Shown: piece by piece, positions 1-6,037 of the stretch
Layout of the letters: each line of letters opens with the position of its first letter
Position numbering within the stretch: the first letter of the stretch is position 1
Origin: Polaromonas sp. AET17H-212
GTDB lineage: Bacteria; Pseudomonadota; Gammaproteobacteria; Burkholderiales; Burkholderiaceae_C
Assembly (NCBI RefSeq): GCF_002379085.1
Contig: NZ_NBZW01000008.1
Span: forward strand, 62,001-126,000
DNA: 64,000 nucleotides
Direction of reading: 5' to 3'
Position numbers and translations under genes: made by a program
Notes under the pieces: model-generated
What the model saw: the letters and a program-made list of their open reading frames with translations, nothing else
Databases searched by the model: none
Told to the model about the DNA's origin: nothing

Positions 1-14
1 TGGCTGCAAGGGGC

Positions 15-1313
15 TTACCAGCTCAGGCGCGCATGCACCCAGTGCGCGGCCGCCAGCAGACGGTGGTCGTCGCCAGGGGCGCCCACCAGCTGCAGGCCCA
101 CGGGCAGCCCGCGGCGGCCCCGGGCAAAAGGCAGGTGCACGCAGGGCAGGCCCAGCAGGGTCCAGGTCCGGCAAAACAGCGGGTCACCCGTGCCGTCCAG
201 CCCGGCCGGGGCCTCGCCGATGCTGCTGGGGGCCAGCAACACGTCGTGTGATCCGAACAAGGCCTGCGCCTGGTGCCGCGCCTGCGCCGTTACCCGCAGG
301 TTGTGCGCGTGGGTGTCACCCGCGATGGCCAGGCCAGCCGCAATCAGTGCCTGCAGGGGCGCACTGAGCTGGTCGCGATGCCGCAGGCGTTCATCGCTCA
401 GGGAGCGCGCGGTCTCGAACGCCTGCACCTCTTTCTGCACGGCAACCAGGCCGGCCAGCTCGGGCGGCAGCGCCAGCGGCGCGCCGTGGCCGGCCAGCGC
501 TGCTTCGGCCTGGGCCCAGGCCTGCTGGGTGTCCTCATCGGCCTGGGCCCACTCGGGTGTGCGGCAAAAGCCGATGCGCGGTGCGGCTGTTTGTGCAAAC
601 GCGGCGGGGTCGGCCAGCCGCGTATCGCCGGTCAGCACCGCGCCGAGCAGCGCCACGTCGCGCACGCTGCGCGCAAAGCCGCCCACCGTGTCCAGCGTTT
701 CCGACAGGCTTTTGACGCCGGCCCGGGGCACGCGGTTGTGGCTGGGCTTGTAGCCGACCACGCCGCAAAACGCCGCCGGCCGAATCAGCGAACCGGCCGT
801 TTGTGTGCCCAGCGCCAGCGGCAGCATGGCGTCGGCCACGGCGGCGGCCGAACCGCTCGACGAGCCGCCCGGCGTGTGCTCGGTGTGGTGCGGGTTGCGC
901 GTGACGCCGGGGAACATGTTGGCCAGCTCGGTGGTCACGGTTTTTCCGAGCAGCACCGCGCCGGCCTCCCGGCACAGCGCCACGGCCGCCGCATCGGCCA
1001 GCGGCTGCTGGCCGGCATAAATGGGTGATCCGTAAGCGGTGGGCAGGTCACAGGTGTCGAACAAGTCCTTCACGCCAAACGGCAGGCCGTGCAGCAGGCC
1101 GCGCACCGGCCCGGCGTCGAGTTCGCGGGCCGTCGCCAGCGCGGCATCGGCGCCCAGCTGCACAAACGCCTGCAGCTGCGGCTCGCGTTCGGCAATGCGG
1201 TCCAGGCAGGCGCGGACCAGGTCCACGGCCTGGAGTTCGCGGCGTGCGAGCAGGCTGGCGGCTTGCCAGGCGTCGAGTTGGTGCAGGGGGGTGGTGGCGC
1301 GGGAGGAAGTCAT
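15..1313 (-). CDS. Amidase signature family hydrolase
   Basis: Amidase of the GatA/AtzF family (432 aa), hydrolysing an amide or acting as an amidotransferase-type subunit; the substrate is not predictable. The Ser-Ser-Lys triad is visible: Lys82 in GVKDLF, the glycine/serine loop GGSSSGS at 149-155, and the nucleophile Ser175 in TAGSLIRPAAFCG. The reading frame is open back to 1361, but I start at the Met at 1313 (MTSSRATTP); the longer start would run into the tRNA-Leu terminator at 1360-1390. It stands alone downstream of tRNA-Leu on the same strand and lacks gatB/gatC neighbours, so a stand-alone catabolic amidase is more likely than GatA. Confidence 0.85.
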   Translation of the reverse strand: MTSSRATTPLHQLDAWQAASLLARRELQAVDLVRACLDRIAEREPQLQAFVQLGADAALATARELDAGPVRGLLHGLPFGVKDLFDTCDLPTAYGSPIYAGQQPLADAAAVALCREAGAVLLGKTVTTELANMFPGVTRNPHHTEHTPGGSSSGSAAAVADAMLPLALGTQTAGSLIRPAAFCGVVGYKPSHNRVPRAGVKSLSETLDTVGGFARSVRDVALLGAVLTGDTRLADPAAFAQTAAPRIGFCRTPEWAQADEDTQQAWAQAEAALAGHGAPLALPPELAGLVAVQKEVQAFETARSLSDERLRHRDQLSAPLQALIAAGLAIAGDTHAHNLRVTAQARHQAQALFGSHDVLLAPSSIGEAPAGLDGTGDPLFCRTWTLLGLPCVHLPFARGRRGLPVGLQLVGAPGDDHRLLAAAHWVHARLSW

Positions 1314-1359
1314 GCCCGCCAGTATCCGTGCTTCTGCGCTTTTTGCGGGCAACGCCCAC

Positions 1360-1390
1360 AAAAAAGGCCCCTCCCAAACTGGAAGGGCCT
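1360..1390 (-). terminator. Intrinsic terminator of the tRNA-Leu transcript
   Basis: On the minus strand a 10-bp stem with one mismatch (AGGCCCTTCC pairing with GGGAGGGGCCT), a 6-nt loop and a run of six T. It lies after the two tRNA-tail repeats, so the repeats should be part of the primary tRNA transcript. Confidence 0.75.
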
Positions 1391-1397
1391 GTATCTG

Positions 1398-1607
1398 GTG
1401 CGCGGGGCCGGAATCGAACCCGCGAACGAAGTGCGCTTTGTCACTATCGCCCAGAGGCGGGCCGGTTCGGGAGAACCAAGCGACTGGTGTTCACAAGAGG
1501 GGGTGCGCGGGGCCGGAATCGAACCCGCGTACGAAGTGCGCTTTGTCACTATCGCCCAAAGGCGGGCCGGTTCGGGAGAACCAAGCGACTGGTGTTCACA
1601 AGAGGTG
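1398..1607 (-). repeat. Two 105-bp tandem repeats carrying a copy of the tRNA-Leu 3' tail
   Basis: Two units (about 1398-1502 and 1503-1607) differ at only a few positions and repeat with a period of exactly 105 bp; the third period begins with the real tRNA-Leu 3' end at 1608. Each unit has about 24 nt resembling the T-loop/acceptor 3' end (GGTTCGATTCCGGCCCC, then GCGCACC instead of GGGCACC), followed by about 80 nt of non-tRNA sequence holding small hairpins (GGTTC-TCCC-GAACC). The T stem no longer pairs well, so the units are tails and not whole tRNAs. The arrangement resembles the rtT repeats behind E. coli tyrT. Confidence 0.85.
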
Positions 1608-1690
1608 GTGCCCGGGGCCGGAATCGAACCGGCACGCCTTTCGGCGGGGGATTTTGAGTCCCCTGCGTCTACCAATTTCACCACCCGGGC
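1606..1690 (-). tRNA. tRNA-Leu (anticodon CAA)
   Basis: Class II tRNA with acceptor GCCCGGG pairing with CCCGGGC, a D-loop with GGTAGACGC, an anticodon stem GGGGA/TCCCC enclosing loop CTCAAAA (anticodon CAA), a variable arm GCCGAAAGGC and a T-loop TTCGATT. The discriminator A and an encoded CCA lie at 1606-1609. It reads away from cysM, whose start codon is 41 bp from the tRNA 5' end. A CATAAT -10-like box lies at 1711-1716 on the minus strand. Confidence 0.95.
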
Positions 1691-1730
1691 AGGAAGAAGC
1701 AAAGAGGTAAATTATGGCACAGTGCAGGGT

Positions 1731-2633
1731 ATGAATTATCCGACCATCGAAGACGCCATTGGCAAAACACCCCTGGTGGCACTGCAACGTATCCAGTCCC
1801 AAGCCAACACCCAACGCCACAACGTGGTCCTCGGCAAACTCGAAGGCAACAACCCCGCCGGCTCGGTGAAAGACCGGCCCGCGCTGTCCATGATCAAGCG
1901 CGCCGAGGAGCGCGGCGAGATCCGGCCCGGCGACACGCTGATCGAGGCCACCTCCGGCAACACCGGCATTGCGCTGGCCATGGCCGCGGCCATCAAGGGT
2001 TACCGCATGGTGCTGATCATGCCGGAGGATCTGTCGATTGAACGCGCGCAAACCATGAAGGCTTTCGGCGCCGAGCTGATCCTCACGCCCAAAAGCGGCG
2101 GCATGGAGCACGCGCGCGACCTGGCCGACCAGATGGCCAAAGACGGCAAGGGCCGCGTGCTGGACCAGTTTGCCAACCAGGACAACCCGCGCATCCACTA
2201 CGAGACCACCGGTCCCGAGATCTGGGCCGATACGCACGGGAAAATCACGCATTTTGTCAGCGCTATGGGCACCACCGGCACCATCACCGGCGTGTCGCGT
2301 TTCCTGAAAGAGAAAAACCCGGCGATCAAGATCATCGGCGCGCAGCCCAGCGAGGGCTCGCGCATTCCCGGCATCCGCAAGTGGCCCGAGGCCTACATGC
2401 CGAAAATTTACGACCCCAGCCACATCGACGAGACCGTGCTGGTGAGCCAGCTTGACGCCGAAGACATGTGCCGCCGCTTGGCGCGCGAAGAGGGCATCTT
2501 CGCCGGCATCTCGGCCGCCGGCGCCTGCTGGGTGGCGCAGGAGATTGCCAAAACCGTGGAGAACGCGGTGATCGTGTTCATCGTCTGCGACCGCGGCGAC
2601 CGGTATCTGTCGACTGGTGTGTTTCCGGCCTGA
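1731..2633 (+). CDS. cysM: Cysteine synthase B (O-acetylserine sulfhydrylase)
   Basis: PLP enzyme (300 aa) making L-cysteine from O-acetylserine and sulfide or thiosulfate. The N-terminal IGKTPLVALQRI, the PLP lysine Lys47 in GSVKDRPAL and the phosphate-binding loop SGNTG (75-79) are typical. The shorter length (300 aa) and the EGNNPAGSVKDRP segment favour CysM over CysK. Start chosen at ATG 1731, which gives the standard N-terminus; the frame is open much further upstream but only because it passes through the tRNA repeats. Monocistronic. Confidence 0.93.
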   Translation: MNYPTIEDAIGKTPLVALQRIQSQANTQRHNVVLGKLEGNNPAGSVKDRPALSMIKRAEERGEIRPGDTLIEATSGNTGIALAMAAAIKGYRMVLIMPEDLSIERAQTMKAFGAELILTPKSGGMEHARDLADQMAKDGKGRVLDQFANQDNPRIHYETTGPEIWADTHGKITHFVSAMGTTGTITGVSRFLKEKNPAIKIIGAQPSEGSRIPGIRKWPEAYMPKIYDPSHIDETVLVSQLDAEDMCRRLAREEGIFAGISAAGACWVAQEIAKTVENAVIVFIVCDRGDRYLSTGVFPA

Positions 2634-2641
2634 TGTCCCTG

Positions 2642-2664
2642 CCGTTCAGGCTCAGGGCGAACGG
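2642..2664. repeat. REP-like palindromic element (partial)
   Basis: Arms CCGTTC (2642-2647) and GAACGG (2659-2664) around AGGCTCAGGGC. It resembles the right part of a REP-like element I recognise from many proteobacteria; a left-part copy lies at 23763-23783 inside a gene. Confidence 0.5.
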
Positions 2665-2720
2665 TTTGGCCAGGGTTTGTATATAAAAAGTGGGCTGCCG
2701 CCCTTGTTCCACGGGTGCAG

Positions 2721-2740
2721 GTAGCTATCAAAAAAGAAGC
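2721..2740. repeat. Short AT-rich palindromic element, copy 1
   Basis: GTAGCTATCAAAAAAGAAGC, preceded by GCCCTTGTTCCACGGGTGCA, closely matching the context of the copy at 12028. It sits just upstream of the NUDIX gene. Confidence 0.6.
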
Positions 2741-2757
2741 AAAAAGGTTTGCATGTC

Positions 2758-3288
2758 ATGAGCCAGGAATTCAAGTTTTGCCCCAGTTGCGCCACCCCGC
2801 TGGCGATGATTTCCCAGCTGGAAGACAGCGGCGAGACCGCACGCCTGCGCTGCCCGGCCTGCGACTACACCCACTGGAACAACCCGGTGCCGGTGCTGGC
2901 CGCGATCATCGAGCACCAGGGCAAGATCCTGCTGGCGCGCAACGCCGCCTGGTCCGGCAAGATGTACGCGCTGATCACCGGCTTCATGGAAGCCGGCGAA
3001 ACGCCCGAAGGCGGCATCACCCGTGAGATCAAGGAAGAAACCAACCTCGACGTGACCGACCTCCAACTGATCGGCGTCTACGACTTCCAGCGCATGAACC
3101 AGATCATCATTGCCTACAGCGCCGTCGGCCATGGCGAAGTCAAACTCTCTCCCGAGTTGGTCGATTACCGGCTGTATGCCCATGAAGATGTGAAGTGCTG
3201 GCCGGCCGGCACCGGTTACGCCCTGGCCGATTTTTTGAAGTCCAGGGGTTTCGAGCCGGAGTTTGTGGAGTGGGCCAAGCGCGACTGA
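2758..3288 (+). CDS. NUDIX hydrolase with N-terminal zinc ribbon
   Basis: 176-aa NUDIX hydrolase. Four cysteines, CPSC (8-11) and CPAC (32-35), form a zinc ribbon as in NADH pyrophosphatase (NudC)-type proteins. The Nudix box spans about 75-97, GFMEAGE...REIKEE, with the metal-binding glutamates present. The N-terminal domain of full NudC is absent, so this is a short NudC-like member acting on NAD(H) or another nucleoside diphosphate derivative; the substrate is not known. ATG 2758 is preferred over TTG 2749 because AAAAAGG (2741-2747) is well spaced from it. Confidence 0.88.
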   Translation: MSQEFKFCPSCATPLAMISQLEDSGETARLRCPACDYTHWNNPVPVLAAIIEHQGKILLARNAAWSGKMYALITGFMEAGETPEGGITREIKEETNLDVTDLQLIGVYDFQRMNQIIIAYSAVGHGEVKLSPELVDYRLYAHEDVKCWPAGTGYALADFLKSRGFEPEFVEWAKRD

Positions 3289-3298
3289 TTCCCGCGGT

Positions 3299-3328
3299 TT
3301 GGCCAGGCGGGACGCATTCCGCTAGAAT
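3299..3328 (+). promoter_or_regulatory. Predicted sigma-70 promoter of the TPP-riboswitch operon
   Basis: TTGGCC (3299-3304), an 18-bp spacer and TAGAAT (3323-3328). Transcription would begin near 3335, exactly at the 5' edge of the riboswitch. Confidence 0.5.
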
Positions 3329-3334
3329 TTCCCT

Positions 3335-3433
3335 TGCTCCGGGGTGCAGCCCTGCTGGAAACGGCAGGGGTGGCTGAGATGGTCAGAACCAAACCCGCGA
3401 ACTTGAATCGGTTCATACCGACGTAAGGAGAGC
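3335..3433 (+). ncRNA. TPP riboswitch (THI element)
   Basis: All hallmarks of the thiamin pyrophosphate aptamer are present in order: closing P1 CTCC (3337-3340) with GGAG (3427-3430); GGGGTGC (3341-3347); an optional P3 hairpin CCCTGC / GCAGGG; the invariant GGCTGAGA (3372-3379); then GAACTTGAATCGG and TTCATACCGACGTAAGGA, the counterpart of the canonical CTGATC...TAATACCAGCGTAGGGA half. It precedes the operon starting at 3507 on the same strand, so TPP should repress LuxE-like, LuxC-like, ABC importer and SDR genes together. Confidence 0.92.
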
Positions 3434-3463
3434 TGTCAGCAACCCGGTGCGGGACTGCCACAT

Positions 3464-3498
3464 CTTTCGGAGCACTTGTTCAACAGAGCAACCGAAAG
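3464..3498 (+). promoter_or_regulatory. Hairpin before the first gene, possible expression platform
   Basis: CTTTCGG (3464-3470) pairs with CCGAAAG (3492-3498), ending 8 nt before ATG 3507 and covering the only purine-rich stretch (GAAAG) that could serve as ribosome-binding site. No T-run follows, so translational rather than transcriptional control is suggested. A smaller hairpin CCCG-GTG-CGGG precedes it at 3443-3453. Confidence 0.4.
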
Positions 3499-3506
3499 CG
3501 TGACCC

Positions 3507-4586
3507 ATGGCTCCACCGGCGTTGATTGCTGATCTGCTGGCCTTCCTGGCCGACACCCACCCGTCCGACGAGGCCTTCGACCGGCAGGCGCTCGCGCTGT
3601 TTGCGCACCAGTTCCAGCACAACCTGCCGTTCCAGCGCTTTTGCCAGCAGCGCGGCAAAACCCTGCGCACCGTCAAGAGCTGGCGCGACATTCCCGCCGT
3701 GCCCATCAGCGCCTTCAAGGCCCTGACCCTGAGCTGCATTCCCGCCAGCGAAGCCGAGCGCACCTTCATGACCAGCGGCACCACGCAGGCCGAGGTCAAG
3801 GGCAAGCACCACCACCCCACGCTGGCCGTGTACGACGCGTCCATGATCCGCAATTTCCGCGAACGCTTCATGGCCGGCAGCGGCCGCATCCGCATGGGCA
3901 TGTTGTTTCCGGACGAGACGCTGCTGCCGAATTCCTCGCTGGCGCATTACCTCGCGCTGGCCCTGCGCGAGTTCGGCACCGAAGCCAGCCACTACCTGCT
4001 GACGCAGCAGGGCCTGGACACGGTGCGCCTGATTGCCGAACTCGAGCGCGCGCAGCAGACCGGCGAGCCGTATGCGCTGCTGGGCGCGAGTTACAGCTTT
4101 GTGCACCTGCTCGACGAACTGCAGCGCCTGGGCAGAACATTCGCCCTGCCGGCCGGCAGCCGCGTGCTGGACACCGGCGGCTTCAAGGGCCAGTCGCGCG
4201 AGTTGTCGATGCAGGACTTTTATGCCCAGCTCTCGGCCACGCTGGGCATCCCCACCCGCCAGTGCATCAACATGTACGGCATGACCGAACTCAGCACGCA
4301 GTTCTACGACGACGGCAATGCGACCCTGCCCTCGGTCAAGTCGGGCCCGCACTGGATCCGCAGCCGCGTGGTCGAGCCGCTCAGTGGTGAGGAATTGCCG
4401 CGCGGTCAGCAGGGCATCCTCGCGCATTGCGACCTGGCGAACTTCAACTCGGTGACCACCATCCTGACCGAAGACGTGGGTGTGGCGGTGGACGGCGGCT
4501 TCTTGCTGCTGGGCCGCGCGCAGGGCAGCGCGGCCAAGGGCTGCTCGCTGGCGGTCGAGGAATTTTTGCAGGCGGCCGCGGCATGA
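3507..4586 (+). CDS. LuxE-like acyl-protein synthetase, under TPP riboswitch
   Basis: 359-aa protein of the LuxE family: ATP-dependent activation of a carboxylic acid to acyl-AMP, then transfer to an enzyme cysteine for delivery to a LuxC-type reductase. Visible: the AMP-forming loop FMTSGTT (87-93), LDTGGFKG, NMYGMTEL, and a C-terminal Cys346 in GCSLAVEEF at the position of the acylated cysteine of LuxE. Translationally coupled (ATGA) to the LuxC-like gene. No luxAB is present, so this is not bioluminescence. Riboswitch control and the co-transcribed THI5-like importer suggest that the acid is a thiamin-related compound; this is inference. A fatty acid remains possible. Confidence 0.85.
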   Translation: MAPPALIADLLAFLADTHPSDEAFDRQALALFAHQFQHNLPFQRFCQQRGKTLRTVKSWRDIPAVPISAFKALTLSCIPASEAERTFMTSGTTQAEVKGKHHHPTLAVYDASMIRNFRERFMAGSGRIRMGMLFPDETLLPNSSLAHYLALALREFGTEASHYLLTQQGLDTVRLIAELERAQQTGEPYALLGASYSFVHLLDELQRLGRTFALPAGSRVLDTGGFKGQSRELSMQDFYAQLSATLGIPTRQCINMYGMTELSTQFYDDGNATLPSVKSGPHWIRSRVVEPLSGEELPRGQQGILAHCDLANFNSVTTILTEDVGVAVDGGFLLLGRAQGSAAKGCSLAVEEFLQAAAA

Positions 4587-6037
4587 GGCTGCTGCGCGAA
4601 ACCGCCGGCTACCTGCCGGGCCTGCGCGCCGATGAGCTCGCGTGGCAGACGTTGGCCTTCGAGAGCACGGGCGGCCGCGTCGAGGTGGCCGTGCCGGTGC
4701 TGACCGAAGCGCAAATCATCGCGCTCACGCAGCGCGTGCGCAACGCCAGCCGCAGCTACCTCAAATCGCTGACGGTGGCGCAGATCGTGGACACCATAGA
4801 CCGCGCCATCCACCGCCTGCTGGACCCCCAGGACCCGTGGCGGCGCAAGGCCGACAGCGTGTTGCCGCGGGTGACCGGTTACGACGCGGAGATGGTACGC
4901 CTGGGCTTGACGGGTTACCTCAAGACCTTCCGCAAGCCGCAACTGCTGCGTTTTCTGGCTGAAGACTTTGGCAACCCGCAACTGCTCGACGACTTTGTGC
5001 CGCGTCCCAAGGGCGGCTTCTCCAAGGCCTTCGGTCCCGATGTGGCGGTGCATGTCTGGGCCGGCAATGTGCCCGGCCTGTGCCTGTGGAGCCTGATTTC
5101 CGGCTTGCTGGTCAAGTCCGGCACGGTCGGCAAGGTGGCCAGCGCCGAGCCGCTGCTGGCCGGCTGGTTCGCGCAGCTGCTGGTCGAGATCGATCCGGGT
5201 CTGGCCGACTGCCTGGCCGTGGTCTGGTGGAAGGGCGGCGACGAGGCGCAGGAGAAAGTGTTCTTCGGCCACGCCGACCTGGTGTTGGCCTACGGCAGCA
5301 ACGCGGCGCTGGCCGATGTGCGGCGCCAGGTGCCGGTCACCACGCGTTTCCTGCCCTTTGGCCACAAGCTCAGTTTCGGCCTGGTGGCCGCGTCCGCGCT
5401 CGATGCGCGCAAGGCGTCGCGGGCGGCTCAGCAGGCGGCCTACGACGTGGTGCGGTACGACCAGCAAGGCTGTTATTCGCCGCATGTGTTTTATGTGGCA
5501 CGCGGTGGAAAAATCAGCCCGGACGAGTTTTCACGCTACCTCGCGCATGAACTGTCCGCCCTCGAAAAGAAATACCCGCGGCGCACGCTGAGCCTGGGCG
5601 AAGCGGCCGATCTCGCTGCATGGCGCCAGGCCGAGGAAATCCACAGCCTGTCGCCCGGCGGGCCGCAGGTGGCAGGCGAGGGCGACTGGACCGTGGTTTA
5701 CCACCCCAGCCTGCAGCCGCTGGCGCCCGGCGCCCTGAACCGCACGGTGCGTGTGGTGGCGGTCGATCTGCTGGCCGACGTGATCCCGCTCCTGGGCCCG
5801 CACCGCGCCTTCTTGCAGACGGTCGGCGTGGCGGCCGCACCGCGCGAATTGTTCGGACTCGCCGAGCAGCTCGGCCGCGCCGGCGTCACGCGCATCTGCG
5901 CGCTCGGCCAGATGACGTCGCCCGAAGCCGGCTGGCACCACGACGGGCGCTTCAGCCTGCTCGACCTGGTGCAGATGGTGGACATCGACAGCTCGGCCGA
6001 AGCCGCAGCCGACATACTGGCGCCGTATGTCGACTGA
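4583..6037 (+). CDS. LuxC-like acyl-CoA/acyl-protein reductase
   Basis: 484-aa LuxC-family reductase that accepts an acyl group from LuxE onto a cysteine and reduces it with NADPH to an aldehyde. The active-site Cys297 lies in QQGCYSPHVF, the LuxC-type context, and FLPFGHKLSFG (257-267) is also typical. Starts by ATGA overlap with the LuxE-like gene and overlaps the following ABC ATPase by 11 bp, so the three are tightly coupled. Intact length and catalytic cysteine argue for an active enzyme. Product aldehyde not predictable from sequence; see the SDR at 8563 for a possible next step. Confidence 0.85.
   Translation: MRLLRETAGYLPGLRADELAWQTLAFESTGGRVEVAVPVLTEAQIIALTQRVRNASRSYLKSLTVAQIVDTIDRAIHRLLDPQDPWRRKADSVLPRVTGYDAEMVRLGLTGYLKTFRKPQLLRFLAEDFGNPQLLDDFVPRPKGGFSKAFGPDVAVHVWAGNVPGLCLWSLISGLLVKSGTVGKVASAEPLLAGWFAQLLVEIDPGLADCLAVVWWKGGDEAQEKVFFGHADLVLAYGSNAALADVRRQVPVTTRFLPFGHKLSFGLVAASALDARKASRAAQQAAYDVVRYDQQGCYSPHVFYVARGGKISPDEFSRYLAHELSALEKKYPRRTLSLGEAADLAAWRQAEEIHSLSPGGPQVAGEGDWTVVYHPSLQPLAPGALNRTVRVVAVDLLADVIPLLGPHRAFLQTVGVAAAPRELFGLAEQLGRAGVTRICALGQMTSPEAGWHHDGRFSLLDLVQMVDIDSSAEAAADILAPYVD

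Follow-up and report, generated by a model that had tools for sequence, protein, structure and literature searches.

A tandem repeat array behind tRNA-Leu(CAA)

The window (the whole 64,000-nucleotide stretch of Polaromonas sp. AET17H-212 analysed here) carries a tRNA-Leu(CAA) gene on its minus strand at 1606..1690 (ARAGORN; Rfam RF00005, 53 bits), which is the host of two 105 nt repeat units standing directly behind it on the same strand: unit 1 at 1501..1605, counted from the tRNA CCA end, and unit 2 at 1396..1500 (repeat search and TRF). The direct repeats are of exactly 105 nt (1397-1501 and 1502-1606, 97% identical), and TRF reports the array at 1397-1630 with a period of 105, 2.2 copies and a score of 440, the only strong array in the 64-kb window, where the other TRF rows (three in all) score 51 and 67. 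Each unit contains a copy of the tRNA 3′ tail matching at 23/24 nt, on the minus strand at 1502..1525 in unit 1 and 1397..1420 in unit 2; the 24-nt unit tail recurs exactly at these two positions and with one mismatch at the tRNA end itself (1607-1630), against a mean of 0.00 matches in 100 shuffles. Read on the plus strand the tail copy opens each unit, read in the direction of the tRNA it closes it. Behind the array lies an intrinsic terminator (1365..1390, minus strand), a 10-pair stem and T run folding at −24 kcal/mol (z −3.6), and the two overlapping terminator-like sites found on the minus strand at 1390-1365 compare with 0.9 expected from shuffles. The first-pass annotation of this DNA had described two tandem repeats of exact 105-bp period behind a tRNA-Leu, each with about 24 nt of the tRNA 3′ end and with an intrinsic terminator after them, and was correct on each of these points. 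An assembly artefact, which it had considered, is unlikely because another Polaromonas genome (G053, locus L009) has two such units, 98% identical over the 310 bases searched.

The remainder of each unit had been called non-tRNA sequence; the antisense tRNA segment and hairpins that it holds had been missed. In unit 1 an antisense segment (X′, 1553..1574, minus strand) is an inverted repeat of the tRNA variable arm and T stem at 1625-1646 (91%, 2 mismatches in 22 nt), and unit 2 carries its counterpart at 1448..1469 (minus strand; 86%, same partner at 1625-1646). This best inverted 22-nt match of two mismatches lies below the minimum reached in shuffles, which was 5 in 200 shuffles at every second offset and 6 in 60 shuffles at every offset. 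A hairpin, P3, stands between the antisense segment and the tail copy on the minus strand of both units, at 1527..1541 in unit 1 (six pairs including one C-A mismatch; scored as P3, position by reading) and at 1422..1436 in unit 2 (one C-T mismatch; position and pairing by reading, with no separate score). Among 42 tRNA genes of Polaromonas sp. AET17H-212, tested over up to 400 nt behind each, a close tail copy stands behind tRNA-Leu(CAA) alone (1 mismatch in 24, next-best tRNA 7), and so does a close inverted copy (3 mismatches in 22 in the register used, next-best tRNA 7). The terminator is followed in the same direction by an amidase-like gene (15-1313), which scores below the cut-off of every amidase model shown, and cysM (1731-2633), which scores over its cut-off, runs divergently on the other side of the tRNA; a search for a promoter consensus at the tRNA-Leu(CAA) and array of the window found none. 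A TPP riboswitch lies further along on the plus strand (3330-3446, 58.1 bits).

Plan and conservation of the unit

In the direction of the tRNA, units follow a common plan: a variable stretch (~30 nt, longer in some genera), the antisense arm, a hairpin P2, a joint, the hairpin P3 and the sense tail, in which the antisense arm is a copy of the host tRNA variable arm/T arm, the sense tail runs from T loop to CCA, and the joint between P2 and P3 approximates ATTGAC-AA. Across 30 units in 10 genus groups (369 pairs) the spacer aligns between groups above shuffles (mean z 3.58), whereas the sequence leading up to the antisense arm (0.70) and the 40 nt that follow the tail (0.48) are not conserved; with one unit per genus group the values are 3.78, 0.65 and 0.23, respectively. 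Locus L093 was grouped with Hylemonella (same genus, g15), and placing it with Curvibacter instead gives 3.51, 0.65 and 0.44. P3, with up to one mismatch allowed, is present in 30/30 units at a mean score of 5.86 vs. 2.96 in shuffles, 5% of which reach the observed median; its stems vary between units (GCGCAC/GTGCGC, ACGCC/GGCGT, AGCACG/CGTGCT, TCGCCCACGC/GCGTGGGCGA, TCGTCCTCGC/GCGAGGACGA) and one mismatch is found in 7/30, including that of the window. In an alignment of 24 units (A3) the covariation score exceeded all 500 shuffles, three pairs change on both sides (24/500 shuffles as high) and the number of further pair types is ordinary (161/500 as high). Template switching can yield apparent compensatory change (PMC8794818); it can imitate covariation of this kind, but it hardly accounts for the conserved joint. 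Similarity by eye of the joint and spacer to the tRNA-Leu(TAA) variable arm is not above background among 59 tRNAs, and this derivation was rejected. So was a strict 105-bp constraint on the units, because in Hylemonella, Xenophilus and locus L095 the core lies further from the tRNA.

Fit of the units to their host tRNA

Both the tail and the antisense arm fit the tRNA behind which each unit stands. Over 31 carrier loci the unit tails differ from their own tRNA by 87 mismatches in all, compared with a mean of 136.0 and a minimum of 112 in 10,000 permutations, and the antisense arms by 18 vs. 24.7 over 13 nt (p 0.0001) and 104 vs. 119.2 over 18 nt (p 0.0002), values which are too favourable because the carriers are related; in this host permutation test L014 was labelled TAA and is actually a CAA 3′ half. 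A single C/T site which separates the Leu tRNAs agrees between unit and host in 30/31 loci, with C in 26/26 units of C hosts and T in 4/5 units of T hosts (L015 and L072 being out of register in this comparison), and the match is broken in L114.

Distribution of the units and loci that lack them

Repeat number and sequence in relatives, a comparison proposed in the first-pass annotation, bear out a wider family: related units, one to four per locus, stand behind tRNA-Leu(CAA) or tRNA-Leu(TAA) in Polaromonas, Curvibacter, Hylemonella, Ramlibacter, Xenophilus and a Variovorax. Full-length units occur in at least 11 Polaromonas genomes (87 searched, fetched loci read), a lower bound because both loci were not read in every genome; nine are behind tRNA-Leu(CAA) (L001, L009-L015 and L072) and two behind tRNA-Leu(TAA) (L078 and L079), with remnants at two further Polaromonas loci (L070 and L074). 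Scanning named genomes with a pattern returned 29 stretches; in 26 of them a unit stands at the 3′ end of a tRNA-Leu (L114, L123 and L132 assigned by inspection, L123 retaining only a tail remnant of the tRNA), and the other three (L125, L133, L134) were rejected as chance matches. Its carriers belong to Polaromonas, Curvibacter, Hylemonella, Ramlibacter, Xenophilus, Variovorax sp. PCZ-1 and less closely named records; the Variovorax has four units of 104-bp period behind tRNA-Leu(TAA), the fourth without a full tail. With filters that lose weak matches, a sequence model matched 11 of 399 genomes of the family, eight of which remain (own genome included) once L096-L098, where reading found no units, are dropped, and a structured model run on 399 genomes of the order under such filters returned the own genome and one chance match, G825, the sole match outside the family, at which there is no tRNA. 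Every confirmed copy sits at the end of a tRNA-Leu with anticodon CAA or TAA, and no copies away from tRNA-Leu were found with these models and this pattern, which were built from Leu units, so units at other host tRNAs could be missed. At two loci (L010 and L094) runs of N lie inside the repeat arrays; copy numbers there are lower bounds because the assemblies break on the units.

Most relatives lack the unit. It was present at 4/30 tRNA-Leu(CAA) loci read in the family, the window included (the best 30 of 64 genomes with a match), and at 0/30 tRNA-Leu(TAA) loci (the best 30 of 40 genomes with a match), so that 56/60 sampled loci are free of it, and presence looks to be all or none. At two unit-free loci (L020 and L021) the tRNA CCA runs directly into GATACAGG, the terminator sequence that stands behind the array in the window, and in L200 the tRNA is directly followed by sequence resembling, by eye, the gene end found behind the unit in other genera. 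The two Polaromonas TAA units (L078 and L079) are nearest to each other and then to a Polaromonas CAA unit, not to the TAA units of other genera, in a comparison which left out L114 and L132. Units at the TAA loci of L112, L115, L118, L127, L130 and L131 follow Gly-Cys-Leu(TAA) tRNA clusters.

Comparison with RtT and other tRNA-end repeats

The annotation had likened the array to the rtT repeats of the E. coli tyrT locus, where the period is 178 bp and a stable transcript and the Tpr reading frame are known. The likeness in anatomy stands: in both, a tandem array lies directly behind a tRNA, units end in a copy of the tRNA 3′ end and contain hairpins and an antisense T-arm segment (19/22 nt in E. 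coli, 20/22 nt in unit 1 of the window), and copy number varies. In E. coli K-12 tyrT-tyrV-rttR there are three exact copies of the 19-nt tRNA-Tyr tail behind tyrV and one in the spacer, and the best 22-nt antisense T-arm copy of the rttR units has 3 mismatches (minimum of 60 shuffles, 6). Kinship in sequence does not stand, as the Leu units do not score as RtT: the covariance model RF00391 had no match at E up to 1 in positions 1-6000 of the window, 10 carrier loci gave nothing at the gathering threshold, L092 and L116 nothing at E up to 10, and the own genome, under stricter filters, nothing either. Membership in RtT was ruled out on these scores. The two also differ in period (105 vs. 178), in host (tRNA-Leu vs. 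tRNA-Tyr, -Gln, -Ser and -Arg) and in the position of the core, which on inspection lies inside the T-loop copy in RtT and before it in the Leu units. The Leu units are described here as a real and recurrent element of the RtT kind without an RtT score, best read as a new family; RtT at several tRNAs and as an expressed RNA was known already.

RtT itself was found in 4680/5426 E. coli genomes at one to nine places each (median 2; one place may join copies), and in a sample of 369 genomes from the class RF00391 has a match at E up to 0.001 in 65, of which 23 exceed the cut-off. Directly behind tRNA-Tyr, -Gln or -Ser stand 23 of the 25 RtT loci checked; the last 16 nt of the host tRNA recur without mismatch in 16/22 loci measured, and an antisense 14-mer with up to two mismatches is found in 6/22 (for L246, shuffles also reach 2). 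RtT tails fit their own host best (402 vs. 218, maximum 310) and so do the antisense stretches (210.5 vs. 165.0, maximum 195), each in 20,000 permutations over 23 of the 25 loci (L245 and L254 left out), although for at least L237, L248, L252, L253, L259 and L261, all of them kept in the count, a wrong GAACC had been used to place the antisense stretch. A further set of 40 stretches, taken from 14 of the matching genomes and in part overlapping the 25 loci, gave 61 RtT elements, 45 with the upstream tRNA in the stretch; Rfam RtT elements (L237-L261 and L262-L301) lie behind Gln, Ser, Tyr and Arg tRNAs, Arg(ccg) and Arg(cct) included, often in tandem. By core sequence, 20/38 rows are nearer another locus of the same genome and 18/38 nearer the same tRNA elsewhere, tandem copies being counted as rows. 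Clear same-genome cases occur between different tRNAs in G880 and G1143 and between two Ser tRNAs in G1088, and a further one, in G1101, involves a partner locus with no tRNA assigned. PMC4986893 reports RtT RNAs in Actinobacillus, seen by Northern blot and by sequencing, with RtT near Asn and Lys tRNAs of that genus and at many other tRNA operons of E. coli; rttR also appears among REP-bearing RNAs (PMC12306157) and RttR in a table (PMC4606813).

Other systems resemble the Leu units in part. The 3′ETS-leuZ of E. coli, a tRNA-Leu trailer which acts as an RNA sponge, shares the position behind a tRNA-Leu; we know of no tRNA tail copy or repeat in it. Direct repeats flank genomic islands at tRNA 3′ ends, and there too a direct copy of the 3′ end lies beside an intact tRNA, but the Leu-unit copies are ~80 bp apart with no integrase between them and have an antisense arm matched to the host. 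The rtT-like elements before gatY, rbfA and cvpA are linked in PMC2965389 to BIMEs, i.e. repeated DNA elements of enterobacteria; these are hairpin-rich like the Leu units, but are reported before protein genes. Template-switch products (PMC8794818) likewise contain a nearby segment copied as its reverse complement which forms a stem, whereas the Leu units recur with a conserved spacer and are not one-off. In the accessible portions of the literature searched, no mention was found of repeats behind tRNA-Leu in Comamonadaceae or of an antisense T-arm segment in RtT.

Transcription with the tRNA

The annotation expected the repeats to be transcribed with the tRNA. This fits the window, where co-transcription is likely because the only terminator-like site stands behind the array, and the array is probably transcribed there as a 3′ trailer able to pair with the tRNA, an effect which we take as secondary. 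It does not extend to the family, because in 6/31 carriers (L091, L094, L111, L116, L122 and L128) a terminator by the hairpin-plus-T rule stands between tRNA and unit. The context of the unit also differs, lying before the amidase-like gene in the window, near other genes elsewhere and, at TAA loci, between the tRNA-Leu(TAA) and a following ORF. At TAA loci such as L211, L213, L233 and L235 an ORF-like stretch begins, by eye, some tens of bases after the tRNA-Leu(TAA), and an ORF so close behind the tRNA suggests a possible tRNA-mRNA transcript.

Origin and spread of the units

The reading we favour, to which we give slightly less than an even chance, is that the Leu units are an RtT-like tRNA-end repeat element of Comamonadaceae, unrelated in sequence to RtT, maintained and spread as DNA, with transcription in places, and with a mechanism and function that we infer. 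In the course of replication or recombination the unit could anneal to a tRNA 3′ end through its tail and antisense arm; strand exchange or a switch of template would then put it behind the tRNA, which is left intact, unequal exchange between tail copies could produce the array, and switching between the inverted copies may keep the arms matched to the host. We count in favour of it the position of the unit at a tRNA-Leu 3′ end in 26/29 pattern stretches, the unit-free loci (L020, L021) beside the terminator sequence of the window, the tails and antisense arms that fit their own host, a spacer which is conserved when the flanks are not, the presence of P3 with differing stems in all 30 units scored, the same anatomy in E. 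coli rttR and RtT ends which track the host at several tRNAs, the placing of rtT-like elements among the BIMEs (PMC2965389), the terminator before the unit in 6/31 carriers, which argues against a general trailer role, and the Polaromonas TAA units (L078, L079) that are nearest, after each other, to a Polaromonas CAA unit. Against it we count the even split of the RtT within-genome spread test (20 vs. 18 of 38 rows), the P3 mismatch in 7/30 units, the host mismatch of L114 and the RtT RNAs of Actinobacillus (PMC4986893), which favour an RNA role for RtT. No movement of units was observed and no enzyme identified in the loci and genomes compared here.

A broader proposal, which we put forward as speculative and rather doubtful, is that RtT and the Leu units belong, as separate families, to a single class of small elements that colonise the 3′ ends of tRNA genes. 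Their antisense arm and their sense arm would each be refitted to the host, and they would multiply in tandem and spread from tRNA to tRNA within a genome. If this is true, the 'rtT RNA' would be the transcribed face of a DNA element. In the papers cited, RtT is treated as a small RNA released from tRNA transcripts or as a BIME-like repeat. As the same anatomy occurs without an RtT score in another bacterial group and the ends of both families are fitted to the host, whether these are regulatory RNAs or elements living on tRNA ends becomes a testable question.

RtT being already known at several tRNAs and as an expressed RNA, the Leu units may instead be a functional structured RNA in the tRNA trailer, whose processing would free units as a small RNA or whose antisense arm would pair with unprocessed tRNA-Leu and tune its maturation, tandem copies adding dose; we regard this as possible but on the unlikely side. 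A tRNA-Leu trailer that works as an RNA has a precedent in 3′ETS-leuZ, terminator-like sequence in the window is absent up to the end of the array, and joint folding of the tRNA and unit 1 over 31 loci (L014, L114 and L132 being incomplete tRNAs) gains 11.1 kcal/mol on average over separate folding, falling to 4.0 when the antisense arm is shuffled. The pairing is kept despite sequence change, with covariation above all 500 shuffles, although template switching can also give apparent compensatory change (PMC8794818), and RtT expression is reported in another species (PMC4986893). The arm has next to no effect on joint folding in L072, L112, L114 and L131, however, the genomic context varies among loci, tRNA and unit are separated by a terminator in those 6/31 carriers, and most sampled relatives do without the unit (present at 4/30 CAA and 0/30 TAA loci). 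A neutral scar of duplication, inversion and duplication is improbable in our estimate: a template switch at the tRNA hairpins during replication would have led to part of the tRNA being copied in reverse, and after a return to the first template its end would have been copied again, with slippage producing the array and with neither function nor spread. Such a course would explain why the unit is an inverted plus a direct piece of tRNA, and duplication also predicts what is seen in Hylemonella, where L091 and L094 repeat the terminator stretch behind the unit, and in L095, which repeats the stretch behind the tRNA; distal copies decay, moreover, as in the third unit of L089 and the antisense arm of units 2 and 3 of L092. 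But genus groups with flanks that do not align conserve the spacer, which has no clear tRNA counterpart, and CAA and TAA loci carry related spacers, so more than one local accident is needed.

Remnants of the attachment sites of an integrase-borne element entering the T loop of tRNA-Leu, with the tail as core repeat and the spacer as leftover arm region, seem to us very improbable. The core repeats of integrative elements usually span the T loop to CCA of a tRNA, which is the extent of the tail, and tRNA-Leu(CAA) does serve as an integration site in Polaromonas, where in L014 a tRNA 3′ half, severed at the anticodon loop, is preceded by a phage-integrase gene and L074, L080, L083 and L084 are also cut at that loop. 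These cuts, however, lie in the anticodon loop and not the T loop, the units of the window have no match in phage or plasmid collections, the single pattern match on a viral contig reads as tRNA sequence, and an integrase arm is not expected to track the variable arm of the host. In the loci read, no integrase-bearing element bounded by the repeat was seen. The tRNA-Leu(CAA) 3′ half behind the phage-integrase gene of L014 still holds two repeat units. In L080, L081 and L082 (genomes G033, G057 and G040) a tRNA-Leu(CAA) cut at the anticodon loop has another tRNA-Leu(CAA), this one complete, ~300 bp behind it, in which ARAGORN reads an intron of 227-228 nt (order read in L080); here the inserted element seems to bring with it an intron-bearing replacement tRNA.
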